A stretch of 12,693 nucleotides of DNA from an uncultured Lachnospiraceae bacterium (GTDB lineage Bacteria; Bacillota_A; Clostridia; Lachnospirales; Lachnospiraceae), in NCBI GenBank assembly GCA_949957035.1, contig CATLIP010000044.1, forward strand, positions 1 to 12,693. Direction: 5' to 3'. The stretch's first letter is position 1. The number at the start of each line of letters is the position of its first letter. Shown in pieces: positions 7,725-12,447 of the stretch. Below the pieces are notes generated by a model, which was given only the letters and a program-made list of their open reading frames with translations, was not told the origin of the DNA and did no database searches. A program made the position numbers and the translations under genes.

Positions 7725-7910
7725 ATGAAAACATCAGAACTTATAAAGATTTTAAAGAAGAATGGATGTTTTTTCGTGGAACATGGTAAAGAACATGATA
7801 AATGGCATAGTGGCAAAACGGGGAAGGATATCAGGATTCCAAGGCATTTAAGTAAAGAAATCCCAAGTGGCACAGCGAATCGAATATTAAAAGATGCGGG
7901 GTTGAAATAA
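7725..7910 (+). CDS. hicA: HicA-family toxin (mRNA interferase)
   Basis: Small 61-residue protein of the HicA type II toxin family, which cleaves mRNA through a double-stranded-RNA-binding-like fold. Visible family features are the N-terminal helix (TSELIKILKKNGC), the region around His24 in HGKEHDKW where the catalytic His lies, the IRIPRH strand, and the C-terminal helix GTANRILKDAGL. The motif reads EHD rather than the common GSHH, but NHD-like versions occur in the family as I know it. The ATG at 7725 follows AAAGGAGG at good spacing. It precedes hicB by 11 bp, the usual toxin-first order. The frame is intact, so the toxin looks functional. Confidence 0.88.
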   Translation: MKTSELIKILKKNGCFFVEHGKEHDKWHSGKTGKDIRIPRHLSKEIPSGTANRILKDAGLK

Positions 7911-7921
7911 GGAGGTAAAAT

Positions 7922-8323
7922 ATGGCTAAATATGTATATCCTGCGGTTTTTACACAGGAGGAAAAAGGATTTTCAGTATGGTTCCCGGATTTGGAGGGAT
8001 GCTATACCTGCGGAGATGACTTAAACGATGCAATCAGGATGGCAGAGGATGTTCTGGCATATGTACTGTATGATTATGAACGGAAAAGAAAAGAGATTCC
8101 GGCGCCATCCCAGCGAAATGCGATTGAACTTGAATCTAAACGGGATTTCGTGAATGATATTGCCTGTGATACGATAGAATATGCAAAGATGCACAATCAT
8201 AAAGCTATCAAAAAGACGCTGACGATTCCTGAATGGCTGAATGAAGAGGCAATGGCGTTGGGTGTGAATTTTTCTCAGGTTTTGAAGGAGGCGCTTCTGG
8301 CAAAAATAAACGCAGGCAGATAA
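7922..8323 (+). CDS. hicB: HicB-family antitoxin
   Basis: 133-residue partner of HicA. Residues 1 to about 60 form the HicB partial RNase-H-like fold (YPAVFTQEEKGFSVWFPDL, then GDDLNDAIRMAEDVLAYVL), which binds and masks the toxin. Residues about 98-131 (KKTLTIPEWLNEEA, then SQVLKEALLAK) are a ribbon-helix-helix/Arc-like DNA-binding domain. GGAGG starts directly after the hicA stop and lies 6 bases before the ATG. The protein probably represses the promoter at 7677-7705. Its stop is 12 bp from the stop of the convergent AraC gene, with no terminator visible between. Confidence 0.9.
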   Translation: MAKYVYPAVFTQEEKGFSVWFPDLEGCYTCGDDLNDAIRMAEDVLAYVLYDYERKRKEIPAPSQRNAIELESKRDFVNDIACDTIEYAKMHNHKAIKKTLTIPEWLNEEAMALGVNFSQVLKEALLAKINAGR

Positions 8324-9313: not shown

Positions 9314-9934
9314 TTATTTTCCTGCCTGATCTTTCACACGGTGGCTGTCAATAATCAGCCGGACAGAGCGGTAAAGAAATGGCTTGTACTGTTCAATCGG
9401 CAGAGGCTCTTTGTACAGGATGGAGTTATACCCGGCAGACCCGGCAAGCTCCACGATGGTAAAAAGCATCACCTCGATATCCTGATATTCATAAGAATCC
9501 TGGCGTACCATATCCAGGAATATCTCATAAAAATCCGTATCCGAACGCTCGCCGGTCAGAAGGACAGACCTAAGCGCCCCCATGACCAGATTCTTGGAAA
9601 TGAAGTTCATGAGAGGGATGTTAAGGACCAGCGTATCTATAATATGATTGATAATAAAAATCAACTGCTCGTCCAGCCCTATGACAGGATTTGGAGCATG
9701 GTCAAGGGCAAACTTCGCCCCATGGAACAGTTCATGGGTCTTGTGGGCGATGAGCTTGTTCCGTATGTCATATTTGTCCTTAAAATACAGATAGAACGTA
9801 CCTTTTGCAACCCCCGCCTTCTCTACGATATCGGATATGGCGGTGGAGTTGATTCCCTTTGTAATGAAAAGGTCATAGGCACTATTGAACAGTGTTTCCT
9901 TTTTCTTTTTCTTATTCTCGTCAATTTTCCCCAT
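9314..9934 (-). CDS. TetR/AcrR-family transcriptional regulator
   Basis: 206 aa from the ATG at 9934. An N-terminal helix-turn-helix spans residues about 16-52 (AYDLFITKGINSTAISDIV, EKAGVAKGTFYLYFKDK), the classic TetR signature; the rest is a helical ligand-binding/dimerisation domain. The frame opens further to a TTG at 9967, but the ATG is preferred: GGA of AAAGGA lies 12 bases upstream, a rather long spacing. The gene is divergent from the MMPL exporter, a common arrangement in which the regulator represses the exporter and the exported compound is the inducer. Three matching palindromes near the exporter promoter fit this role. Effector unknown. Confidence 0.92.
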   Translation of the reverse strand: MGKIDENKKKKKETLFNSAYDLFITKGINSTAISDIVEKAGVAKGTFYLYFKDKYDIRNKLIAHKTHELFHGAKFALDHAPNPVIGLDEQLIFIINHIIDTLVLNIPLMNFISKNLVMGALRSVLLTGERSDTDFYEIFLDMVRQDSYEYQDIEVMLFTIVELAGSAGYNSILYKEPLPIEQYKPFLYRSVRLIIDSHRVKDQAGK

Positions 9935-9980
9935 TCTAATCGACTGTCCTTTCCTTGCTATCCCCAAAGTGTGTTTGTAT

Positions 9981-10110
9981 CCTTATTATAACATGTCACC
10001 AACCGAAGGTTGATGACCTGCGTACGCATCAGCGTACTTCCTTATTATAACATGTCACCAACCGAAGGTTGATGACCTGCGTACGCATCAGCGTACTTCC
10101 TTATTATAAC
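9981..10110 (-). repeat. 59-bp tandem repeat, two copies plus 12-bp partial
   Basis: Copies at 9981-10039 and 10040-10098 appear identical, and the first 12 bases (CCTTATTATAAC) recur at 10099-10110. Each copy has a 47-base core with two hairpins: one at 9995-10017 in copy 1 (10 positions, GAA loop; on the - strand the only non-Watson-Crick pair is a G-U) and a perfect GTACGC-ATCA-GCGTAC at 10022-10037. The 12-base part carries TATAAT on the - strand, so the -10 box of tetR is triplicated. It lies in the presumed tetR leader. A diverged inverted copy of the core is at 10245-10292. It could be a REP/MITE-like element or a cis-acting RNA. Confidence 0.9.
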
Positions 10111-10132
10111 CAGAAAATAAGCGGATTTTCAA
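10103..10132 (-). promoter_or_regulatory. Promoter of the tetR-araC unit
   Basis: On the - strand, TTGAAA (10127-10132) and TATAAT (10103-10108) are separated by 18 bases. The -10 lies in the partial third repeat unit. Further TATAAT copies occur at 10044-10049 and 9985-9990 in the repeats but lack a recognisable -35. Use of this promoter gives a leader of about 160 bases containing both repeat cores. Confidence 0.6.
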
Positions 10133-10148
10133 GTACTTTTGAATAAAA

Positions 10149-10161
10149 TGACTAAAAGTCA
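10149..10161. promoter_or_regulatory. Candidate TetR operator O1
   Basis: TGACT-AAA-AGTCA, a perfect 5-base inverted repeat with a 3-base centre, the first of three with the pattern TGACY-N3-RGTCA. It lies between the divergent promoters, about 16 bp upstream of the tetR -35. Confidence 0.5.
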
Positions 10162-10180
10162 ATTTTTTATAAAAATGGTA

Positions 10181-10209
10181 TTGACTATTGGTCATTTCTG
10201 TAGTATAGT
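10181..10209 (+). promoter_or_regulatory. Promoter of the MMPL exporter gene
   Basis: TTGACT (10181-10186), a 17-base spacer, and TATAGT (10204-10209): each hexamer is one base off consensus. The start site should be near 10216, giving a leader of about 105 bases. Operators O2 and O3 overlap and follow it. Confidence 0.7.
10182..10194. promoter_or_regulatory. Candidate TetR operator O2
   Basis: TGACT-ATT-GGTCA, one mismatch from perfect symmetry, overlapping the -35 box and the spacer of the exporter promoter. It starts 33 bp after O1, close to three helical turns. Binding here would block RNA polymerase. Confidence 0.6.
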
Positions 10210-10224
10210 GCATATTGTAAGAAA

Positions 10225-10237
10225 TGACCAACGGTCA
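10225..10237. promoter_or_regulatory. Candidate TetR operator O3
   Basis: TGACC-AAC-GGTCA, perfect and extendable to 15 bp as ATGACC-AAC-GGTCAT (10224-10238). It lies about 10-20 bases after the predicted start site, 43 bp after O2. As the most symmetric of the three it may be the primary site. Confidence 0.65.
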
Positions 10238-10244
10238 TAAAGTG

Positions 10245-10292
10245 AAACACGCTGACGCGTGCCTTGTCATCAGCCTTTGGTTGGCGGCAAAT
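10245..10292 (+). repeat. Diverged inverted copy of the 47-base two-hairpin element
   Basis: On the + strand this aligns with the reverse complement of the core at 9992-10038, about three quarters identical with a one-base length difference. It keeps both hairpins: CACGC-TGAC-GCGTG (10248-10261) and GTCATCAGCC-TTT-GGTTGGCGGC (about 10266-10288, with G-U pairs and one mismatch). A T-A pair of the tandem copies is C-G here, a compensatory change. It lies in the presumed leader of the exporter mRNA. Confidence 0.7.
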
Positions 10293-10320
10293 CAGAATAT
10301 GAAAAAGGAGCAGTGAGAGT

Positions 10321-12447
10321 ATGGTTCAGTTTGGGAAAAAAGTGGTGAAGTACAGGGTGGCGATTTTGGTTTTCAGTATATTGCTGCTGATTCCTTCCGT
10401 ACTGGGATATGTGAATACCAGAGTGAATTATGATGTCCTGACGTATCTGCCGGAGGATATCGAGACCATGAAGGGTCAGGATATCATGGTAGAAGATTTC
10501 GGGACGGGCGCATTTTCCATGTTTATCGTAGACGGCATGGAAGATAAGGATATTGTAAAATTGAAGAAAGAAATTGAGGAAATCGACCATGTAGGGAACG
10601 TGCTGTGGTACGACTCCGTGATGGATATCTCGGTTCCGGAGAGTATGCTGCCGGATGAACTCTACAAGGTGTTTAATTCTGATACGGGAACTATGATGGC
10701 AATCTTCTTCGACGAAGGGACTTCCTCCGACGGAACCATGGGAGCCATTGAAGAGATTCGGAAAATTGCGGGAAAGCAGTGCTTTTTAAGCGGAATGTCC
10801 GCCATTGTGACCGATACAAAGAATCTTGCCGAGAAAGAGACGCCCCTCTACGTATTAATTGCAGTTGCACTGGCAGTCCTGGTGTTGGGAATCACGATGG
10901 AATCCTTCTTTGTGCCGGTACTGTTCCTGCTGAGTATTGGAATGGCGATTCTCTACAATCTGGGAAGTAATTATTTCCTTGGGGAGATTTCATATATTAC
11001 GAAGGCGTTGGCGGCAGTATTGCAGTTGGGCGTTACGCTGGATTACTCCATTTTCCTGATGCACAGCTATGAAGAGCAGCAGGAACGGTTTCATGGGGAT
11101 AAGAAGCGGGCGATGGCCCATGCGATTTCCCATACCTTTTCTTCCGTGGTGGGAAGTTCCATTACGACGGTTGCAGGATTTATCGCACTGTGTTTCATGA
11201 GCTTCACCTTGGGGCTGGATATCGGGGTCGTCATGGCGAAGGGCGTCGTCTTCGGTGTGATTGCCTGTGTTACGGTTCTGCCATCCATGATTCTGTGCTG
11301 TGACAAAATCATCGAGAAGACGAAACATAAGCCGCTTTTGCCGGATATCGGCAGGCTGTCGGAGAAGGTCACGAAGCGTTATCTCTGGTATGTGGCTGCC
11401 TTCCTGATACTTTTGTTCCCTGCGGTCTATGGAAATAACCACACAGGAGTTTACTATAATCTGGATGAGACGCTTCCTAAGGAGCTTCCAAGTATCATTG
11501 CAAATGAGAAGCTCAAGGAAGATTATGAGATGAATACCACCCACATCCTGCTGCTTGACAGCTCCGTACCATCCTCGGATGTGGGGAAGATGCTGAAACA
11601 AATCGAGAAGGTAGACGGCGTAAAGTGGGCGCTGGGCTTAGATAAACTGGTAGGTCCGGGAGTTCCTTCCGATATGCTTCCGGAGTCGGTCACGAGTATG
11701 TTAAAGACGGATAAATATCAGATGGTGATGGTCAATTCTTTATATAAAGTAGCGTCTGATGAGGTTAATAAACAGATAGAAGAGATTAATGGGATTATGG
11801 ACCAGTTTGACGAGAAGGCAATGCTGGTGGGAGAAGGGCCGCTGACGGCAGATTTGATTACCATTACGGATAAAGATTTCAAGACGGTAAGCGTGGTATC
11901 CATTGGAATTATTTTCATTATTATATTGATTCTGTTCCAGTCCATTTCCCTGCCGATTATACTGGTAGGCGTGATTGAATTTGCAATCTTTGTCAATATG
12001 GGTATCCCCTTCTATACGGGGACGACGTTGCCCTTTGTGGCTTCTATCGTAATCGGCACCATACAGCTTGGCTCGACTGTGGATTATGCCATTCTTATGA
12101 CCACGCGGTATAAGCGGGAGAGAAGCCAGGGAAGAAGTAAATTCGATGCGGTCACGATTGCCCATCGCGCTTCGGCACAGTCTATTATGGTAAGCGCATT
12201 CAGCTTCTTTGCGGCAACGGTTGGCGTAGGTTTGTTCTCAAATATTGACATGATTAGTTCCCTTTGTATCTTGATGGCGCGAGGGGCGATTATCAGTATG
12301 GTTGTAGTAGTATTGATTCTTCCGTCTATGTTCATGGTATTTGACAAGGTGATTGTGAAGACCAGCCGGGGATTTTTACCCAAGACGGCAAAGAGTGACC
12401 GTAAGCGTAAGGACTCTATGAAAGAGTGCTCGGACAGCGGGATGTAA
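10321..12447 (+). CDS. MMPL/RND-family exporter
   Basis: 708-residue membrane protein made of two homologous halves. Each half has one N-terminal membrane segment (about 12-30 and 354-371), an extracytoplasmic domain of roughly 145 residues, and a cluster of five segments (about 175-330 and 523-675). The cluster motifs GVTLDYSIF (Asp241) and GSTVDYAIL (Asp588) are the proton-relay-type GxxxDY signature of MMPL/RND permeases. Proton-driven export of lipids, drugs or hydrophobic peptides is the family role; the substrate here is unknown. The C-terminal tail is basic and cytoplasmic. AAGGAG lies 10 bases before the ATG. Control by the divergent TetR protein is likely (operators O1-O3). The secreted protein starting at 12557 follows without a clear terminator and may be a partner. 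Confidence 0.92.
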   Translation: MVQFGKKVVKYRVAILVFSILLLIPSVLGYVNTRVNYDVLTYLPEDIETMKGQDIMVEDFGTGAFSMFIVDGMEDKDIVKLKKEIEEIDHVGNVLWYDSVMDISVPESMLPDELYKVFNSDTGTMMAIFFDEGTSSDGTMGAIEEIRKIAGKQCFLSGMSAIVTDTKNLAEKETPLYVLIAVALAVLVLGITMESFFVPVLFLLSIGMAILYNLGSNYFLGEISYITKALAAVLQLGVTLDYSIFLMHSYEEQQERFHGDKKRAMAHAISHTFSSVVGSSITTVAGFIALCFMSFTLGLDIGVVMAKGVVFGVIACVTVLPSMILCCDKIIEKTKHKPLLPDIGRLSEKVTKRYLWYVAAFLILLFPAVYGNNHTGVYYNLDETLPKELPSIIANEKLKEDYEMNTTHILLLDSSVPSSDVGKMLKQIEKVDGVKWALGLDKLVGPGVPSDMLPESVTSMLKTDKYQMVMVNSLYKVASDEVNKQIEEINGIMDQFDEKAMLVGEGPLTADLITITDKDFKTVSVVSIGIIFIIILILFQSISLPIILVGVIEFAIFVNMGIPFYTGTTLPFVASIVIGTIQLGSTVDYAILMTTRYKRERSQGRSKFDAVTIAHRASAQSIMVSAFSFFAATVGVGLFSNIDMISSLCILMARGAIISMVVVVLILPSMFMVFDKVIVKTSRGFLPKTAKSDRKRKDSMKECSDSGM

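Follow-up and report, generated by a model that had tools for sequence, protein, structure and literature searches.

Two divergently transcribed neighbours in an uncultured Lachnospiraceae bacterium, a gene for a TetR family regulator and a gene for an MMPL family exporter, carry the same kind of two-hairpin element in their leaders, which raises the question of whether it is a regulatory RNA common to both genes or has reached each leader by other means. The window analysed here is the whole 12,693-nt stretch of DNA containing them. The tetR ORF (9314..9934, minus strand; Pfam TetR_N, E 1.8e-12) extends upstream as far as a TTG at 9967, with the ATG at 9934 as the likelier start, and the exporter gene is an ORF at 10321..12447 on the plus strand (Pfam MMPL, E 1.8e-51). 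Orthologues of tetR were found in 10 of 12 genomes of the genus, including G001, the genome nearest to the window (80% of sampled 31-letter words in common), and the exporter adjoins in all ten; the regions of these ten genomes and the window's own make up a locus alignment of 11 regions. Each gene is preceded by a promoter-like site whose hexamers are invariant in all 11: TTGAAA-18-TATAAT at 10103..10132 (minus strand; 11 of 12 consensus letters) for tetR, and TTGACT-17-TATAGT at 10181..10209 (plus strand) for the exporter. An imperfect inverted repeat lies over the exporter promoter (10182..10237; arms 10182-10199, TGACTATTGGTCATTTCT, and 10220-10237, AGAAATGACCAACGGTCA; 89% complementary), is largely conserved in the aligned regions and is, we infer, a probable TetR operator. 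Elsewhere in the window (7725-8323), two small adjoining ORFs of 61 and 133 aa resemble, by eye, a HicA/HicB toxin-antitoxin pair.

In the tetR leader a 59-nt unit is directly repeated without any change (9980-10038 and 10039-10097), and a partial third unit continues to 10110, since the first 13 nt of the unit (TCCTTATTATAAC) are present a third time at 10098-10110. Read in tetR sense on the minus strand, this 13-nt direct repeat (GTTATAATAAGGA, repeat family D2) has its first copy at 10098..10110, where it encloses the tetR -10 box, its middle copy at 10039..10051 and its last copy at 9980..9992. The two tandem units each hold one two-hairpin element, also on the minus strand: unit 1 at 10050..10102 (hairpin 1 10096-10081, hairpin 2 10076-10054) and the identical unit 2 at 9991..10043 (hairpin 1 10037-10022, hairpin 2 10017-9995). 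Both score 80.6 bits (E 1.7e-21) with covariance model R1, which had unit 1 in its training set. A diverged copy, inverse to the tandem units and likewise part of the training set, occupies the exporter leader at 10241..10292 on the plus strand (hairpin 1 10248-10261, hairpin 2 10266-10288; 53.5 bits, E 2.1e-13), and all three copies have the same sense relative to their own gene. In that sense the order is GAA, hairpin 1 with 5 to 6 bp and a TGAT or TGAC loop, a short linker, and then hairpin 2, which consists of GTCATCARCC, a TTC or TTT loop and GGTTGGYGRC. The hairpin-2 motif GTCATCARCCTTYGGTTGG, composed from the window copies themselves, matches three times (9999-10017 and 10058-10076, minus strand; 10266-10284, plus strand), against a mean of 0.02 per shuffle and three matches in 0 of 200 shuffles. 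A shorter hairpin-1 motif with one mismatch allowed was also found three times and is less telling (mean 0.90; at least three in 10 of 200 shuffles). The tandem repeat with a diverged inverted copy that an earlier note had described from the letters of the window is thereby confirmed; to that description the analysis adds the 13-nt flanking repeat with the tetR -10 box and the related copies in other genomes.

As RNA, the minus-strand tandem unit folds at -25.6 kcal/mol (z -5.3; 0 of 200 shuffles equally good), its opposite strand is also foldable (-19.4 kcal/mol, z -4.4), and the exporter copy reaches -18.6 kcal/mol (z -1.7; 9 of 200 shuffles equally good), which is weak on its own. As the earlier note had seen, the exporter copy has C-G where hairpin 1 of the tandem units has a T-A pair. 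The note has other changes tolerated as G-U pairs, but the outermost hairpin-1 pair of the exporter copy is gone (A opposite C) and A also stands opposite C within hairpin 2, so not every change preserves pairing; the tandem copies, being identical, provide no independent evidence from the second copy. Comparison with G001 over a 391-nt region revealed four differing sites (10006, 10065, 10210 and 10281), three of them within the element: two in hairpin-2 loops and one in which a G-U pair becomes G-C.

The tetR promoter-like site ends at 10103 and hairpin 1 (from 10096) begins 6 nt past the -10, so the tetR transcript should start near or inside hairpin 1; with 10209 as the end of the exporter promoter-like site, the exporter copy would lie about 25-75 nt into its leader. 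Since the promoter-like sites upstream of the copies are also present in nine orthologous loci that are free of the element, both copies should be in the mRNAs, as judged from the predicted start sites. The same-sense arrangement that had been proposed for the two divergent leaders is supported.

The element is not confined to this locus. A pattern search of G001 with up to 3 mismatches returned 16 matches, compared with 0 for the reversed pattern; the three that have 3 mismatches are probably chance. The genome collection contained the exact pattern in 20 stretches. Sixteen come from records labelled Lachnospiraceae, Lachnoclostridium, Clostridium or Clostridia, and two of these stretches (L023 and L029) have no hairpin 1; Paenibacillus, Polynucleobacter, a marine archaeon and Flavobacterium account for the remaining four, where hairpin 1 is missing too and which look like chance. 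The covariance model was built from 26 copies (alignment A1, comprising 26 of 38 distinct units after exclusion of partial copies, chance matches and one near-duplicate). It found matches in all six genomes picked as carriers and, with stricter filters under which weak matches are lost, in 9 of 116 relatives (G001 included) and in one genome, again G001, of a phylum-wide sample of 348. Five of 26 genomes in the genus of G006 were positive, with 18, 18, 33, 74 and 1 matches, and the other 21 had none; G144 is the richest genome, with 74. In the genus of G003 and G004, matches occurred in six of eight genomes. Their length varies from 36 to 63 nt. Among the sampled genomes the family was seen only in those labelled Lachnospiraceae or Clostridium and their kin, and searches of phage, plasmid and IMG/VR sequences gave no match. 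The idea of a REP/MITE-like dispersed repeat, one of several offered by the earlier note, is thus borne out by matches in G001, in the genome collection and in two further genera. We recognised no paper describing this two-hairpin repeat in the open-access literature; subscription papers lay outside that scope, so its absence from print is unproven.

Orthologous loci with and without the element speak for mobility. Of the 11 aligned tetR-exporter regions, two (the window and G001) have both elements and nine have neither, the latter being about 115-175 nt shorter when measured between matched codons. At a second locus with a conserved leader, G007 and G016 are near-identical save for a 55-nt insertion that the covariance model scores as the element (E 2.7e-5), making a filled/empty pair; the flanking repeat there is only TGCA. 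Two other searches were set aside: upstream regions of the cmk gene of G144 were unalignable between genomes and hence uninformative, and the L106 gene as query had, besides itself, only two relatives at 43-44%. Across 124 sites in four congeneric genomes (G144, G143, G134 and G006), only 3, 1 and 1 site pairs had a neighbouring gene in common between genomes, taking the nearest called gene on each side at >=55% identity and with the fetched sites forming part of each genome's total (60 stretches from G144, 25 from G143 and 15 from G134, covering most but not all matches). The empty orthologous loci, the filled/empty pair and the few shared insertion loci together indicate a mobile, non-autonomous repeat.

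It is very likely that the element is a non-autonomous mobile two-hairpin repeat that inserts mainly in front of genes, in the interval from promoter to start codon, where it is transcribed in the 5' leader, and that it came to tetR and to the exporter by separate insertions. Its unit would measure about 45-65 nt, with a 5 to 6 bp stem closed by a TGAT-type loop, a GCAG-type linker and a stem of about 10 bp or longer, and would be moved in trans by some enzyme. One insertion right after the -10 box of tetR would have given rise to the present two tandem units, and one separate insertion, in the same sense, to the exporter copy. The tetR mRNA would then start within a few bases of hairpin 1 and so have a 5'-terminal hairpin; more generally, the element would travel as a passenger in leaders, forming a double hairpin at or near the mRNA 5' end.

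A further conserved and apparently structured leader was noticed among the stretches L141-L167 (GGCATTAGAAGGC..TATTGGGTATGCCARGACC..GTGAACAT-variable stretch-ATGATGTAGCRGGGAGCGAAGCGGA..GATGACCAATGTGCCTTATT; for example L142, about 1501-1650). It is long, is present in 27 copies in 8 of 12 genomes of the genus and is followed in some cases by genes that look, by eye, like surface or polysaccharide genes; four stretches tested had no Rfam match. The element fills its variable stretch in 10 of the 27 copies. Where measurable, that stretch is 9-88 nt without the element, and with element arrays it reaches 208 nt.

Both hairpins are conserved across the family. Pairing in the sequence-based alignment A1 extends to 97.4% of cells, compared with 91.9% after shuffling and at most 44.1% when slid. 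Both-sided changes occur at four of six hairpin-1 pairs and two of ten hairpin-2 pairs, and further pair types are no more numerous than in shuffles (11 vs 10.9). When 100 matches are fitted to the model, both-sided changes are seen at 15 of 16 pairs, in an alignment that leans to structure; copies in one array or genome are non-independent. The both-sided changes in the two alignments support the selection on hairpin structure that had been suggested for the window copies, and would fit RNA hairpins and single-stranded DNA hairpins equally well. The apex CCUNCGG is reminiscent of a UNCG loop (PMC12691694); the idea of a UNCG tetraloop or LoaP (dfn hairpin) was dropped, the stem register giving a triloop and the exporter copy reading CCTTTGG. 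Likenesses to the hammerhead, guanidine-II and k-turn were considered and also dropped.

Site and gene-context analysis was based on 91 of the 100 covariance-model matches; those left out were L020 (which repeats L030), three L125 copies (G001's own tetR-exporter locus), L032:2116, L112:2143 and three antisense partial matches in L126. From the congeneric-genome sets, 73 of 78 and 42 of 46 matches were carried forward. Simple ORF calls, which have errors (the window's tetR site is mis-scored as antisense), class 30 of the resulting 69 sites as sense leaders and 12 as antisense; at 20 a gene starts to either side, the other 7 fall within ORFs, and no site has any other position. In the four congeneric genomes, 6 of the 124 sites fall inside called ORFs and 5 in convergent gaps. 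Two stretches of G005 (L115:278-327 and L116:2539-2588) show hairpin 1 plus GCAGGTCAT inside a called ORF and may be an intragenic copy. At co-directional sites, orientation depends on the subfamily, with a sense:antisense ratio of 34:3 in subfamily a and 6:26 in subfamily b (Fisher p 5e-10). The earlier note had reasoned that random placement without orientation bias relative to genes would favour a dispersed DNA repeat: the dispersal is there, but the placement is not random, being biased to positions upstream of genes and fixed in orientation within each subfamily.

Of 61 sites, 35 have a TATAAT-like hexamer in the 18 nt that precede hairpin 1, where shuffled sequence gives 11.4 and two control windows give 4 and 7 of 61 (8 of the 69 sites were dropped because the first copy was cut or the flank could not be read). 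The TG of an extended -10 is present at 15 of these 35 sites, and at 30 of the 35 hairpin 1 begins 3-8 nt past the hexamer. As read by eye, TGNTATAAT precedes hairpin 1 in subfamily a and stands on the other strand, at the hairpin-2 end, in subfamily b, so that in each the box faces the gene. A cruder TATA-type tally of both strands at the 69 sites, ignoring subfamily, gave no excess on the gene-facing side (sense-only sites, 13 of 34 with a box before hairpin 1 and 15 of 34 on the opposite strand; antisense-only sites, 9 of 15 and 9 of 15). Upstream of the left box, 49 copies of subfamily a display no -35 enrichment (2.55 vs 2.49 letters), so the left box may belong to the element. Several copies at G006 and G134 loci (L098-L109 and L328) have, by eye, a further hairpin directly before a TGATATAAT box, and a second dispersed unit (gtgaatctgtgtg type) is seen nearby; these loci may be hairpin arrays with extended -10 boxes in between. 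At L219:2460-2585 (G144), only 4 nt separate a copy of subfamily a from an inverted one of subfamily b, and the two apparently have one TGATATAAT box in common.

A hairpin at the 5' terminus of an mRNA impedes attack by 5' exonucleases and, by this principle, altered mRNA stability at the 5' end would be the most likely effect of the element, likelier than sensing. It is possible, if somewhat doubtful, that the element is a generic 5' mRNA stabiliser kept and spread by selection, with the promoter-proximal bias arising from selection instead of insertion preference. The short distance from the -10-like hexamer to hairpin 1 and the stems that keep their pairing suit a stabiliser, and 5' mRNA stabilisers are known in Bacillus subtilis. 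Those described in the part of the source at hand are a ribosome stall sequence and a polypurine sequence, neither hairpins nor dispersed repeats, so they are possible working analogies only, features near an mRNA 5' end (PMC3997798). The opposite orientation of subfamily b argues against it, as do the several sites between close co-directional genes, probably inside operons, and the patchy presence in 5 of 26 genomes of one genus. Stabilisation and mobility are compatible, and the first would not exclude the second.

The boxes also suggest a route of insertion. The extended -10 box is single-stranded in the open complex, and a hairpin element could home to promoters by inserting into this box (TGNTATAAT) and duplicating it, so that the promoter survives and the element becomes the mRNA 5' end; we consider this route unlikely. 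The base N of the left and right boxes (TGNTAT) of subfamily a is the same at 43 of 51 sites, against 25.3 expected and in 0 of 2000 permutations. By genome, the agreement is significant in G144 (14 of 16; 7.2 expected) and not in G143 (5 of 11; 4.0), G134 (13 of 13; 11.2) or G006 (9 of 9; 9.0). N is also loosely linked to an internal loop variant (p 0.026), which leaves room for built-in terminal repeats. The missing -35 enrichment, the cruder tally of boxes and the mere TGCA repeat at the G007/G016 insertion speak against this route as well. The flanks of subfamily b, too, match better than after permutation (251 vs 223.9 letters, p 0.001), with 22 sites excluded from the subfamily comparison as belonging to neither subfamily or running off the stretch end. 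Direct repeats compared over 63 sites score only marginally higher within a site than between sites (6.1 vs 5.5, p 0.036), and exact 13-nt direct repeats occur in the window and in L106. Flanking repeats holding the -10 give a hint of target duplication, but a built-in element end would account for them equally. Terminal inverted repeats were not seen in A1, where by eye the ends differ (AAGGAA-type on the left, GACA on the right).

Among known small repeats, one close comparison is with REP/REPIN sequences and their RAYTs. We judge it distinctly improbable that the element derives from REP/RAYT or IS200/IS605 sequences and owes its movement to a Y1 transposase. The family is short, mostly extragenic (called ORFs contain 7 of 69 and 6 of 124 sites), imperfectly palindromic, dispersed at up to 74 matches per genome and divided into genome-specific subfamilies, with compensating changes. 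The foot before hairpin 2 is mostly GCAG and sometimes GTAG, a G[CT]AG tetranucleotide found in most copies and missing from the exporter copy, which loosely resembles the GTAG of REPs (PMC2817692). G144 has four inverse copy pairs 4-171 nt apart (L219, L223, L224 and L272; three of them 84-171 nt). Unlike REPs, the unit has two different hairpins, forms head-to-tail tandem arrays besides the few inverse pairs and sits upstream of genes. No mobilising enzyme was found when carriers were searched for the Y1 transposase domain PF01797: it gave no match in 5 of 10 carriers tested, namely G001 (96% complete), G002, G003, G005 and the 74-match genome G144, which weakens RAYT/Y1 as a general explanation. 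It was present in G004, G006, G131, G134 and G143; in the genus of G006 a Y1 match accompanies 4 of 5 carriers and 9 of 21 non-carriers (Fisher p 0.32).

As a non-coding mobile unit of <200 nt with filled and empty sites, the element also resembles MITE-like repeats. Correia/NEMIS, RUP and ERIC are likewise non-autonomous, mobile, under 200 nt and often transcribed, effects on mRNA stability being proposed for ERIC and promoter motifs for Correia; the element is shorter and shows no terminal inverted repeats or TA ends. The CIR repeats of Caulobacter and Brucella share with it two independent hairpin arms and a linker, and differ in taxa, in sequence and in their GANTC motif; the part of the source at hand mentions no link of CIR to a -10 box (PMC2229807, also for Correia/NEMIS, RUP and ERIC). 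We file the element as a new variant among small mobile repeats, a member of neither the REP/RAYT nor the MITE-like kinds, because half of the carriers tested fail the RAYT test and no terminal inverted repeats were seen.

A cis-regulatory leader RNA common to tetR and the exporter, sensing a ligand or binding a protein to control the export operon, had been proposed from the window, and the same sense in both leaders, the conserved hairpins with paired changes and the location between promoter and start codon all agree with it. Comparison does not support the claim: nine orthologous loci have the same gene pair without the element, and family copies precede genes that, read by eye from their first residues, look unrelated, resembling gyrB, ribosomal protein genes, serC and transport genes. 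The hairpins do not include the ribosome-binding site of the exporter (AAGGAG, 10305-10310). Rfam gave no match above the gathering threshold in the window; a low-threshold search of 9940-10330 gave 10, all far under gathering scores and rejected (plant microRNA, plastid, small RNA and snoRNA models), and a tRNA scan found none. Expanded 5S rRNAs, some of them in Lachnospiraceae, are on record (PMC7812874). Leader-RNA control of this operon is very improbable.

Still less probable is a weak terminator or insulator against transcripts running opposite to the gene that the element precedes. Three terminator-like sites in 9900-10400, against 0.3 in shuffles, speak for it; on the plus strand they coincide with hairpin 1 of both tandem units and on the minus strand with that of the exporter copy, and the coding strand of either leader has none. 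The T-runs of the window's three copies are poor (TTCCTTATTA, TTCACTTTAT), and subfamily b would act in the other direction. Least probable are DNA operator sites bound by a regulator as inverted repeats, with no part for RNA or hairpin structure: inverted repeats do lie near the promoters of a regulator gene, with the probable TetR operator nearby, but matches of 36 to 63 nt whose stems change as pairs, including G-U, are unlike operator half-sites.

The non-autonomous mobile repeat accordingly remains the preferred reading. The dispersal, empty sites, conserved structure, upstream-of-gene placement and subfamily-specific orientation observed for the family describe a new dispersed repeat family of Lachnospiraceae-type bacteria, located mainly between promoter and gene and with an orientation fixed per subfamily. 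Matching leader hairpins of neighbouring genes need not mean a shared riboswitch. If the leader reading is true, insertions would give mRNAs folded 5' ends while leaving the promoter unbroken, and many leaders could be changed at once.
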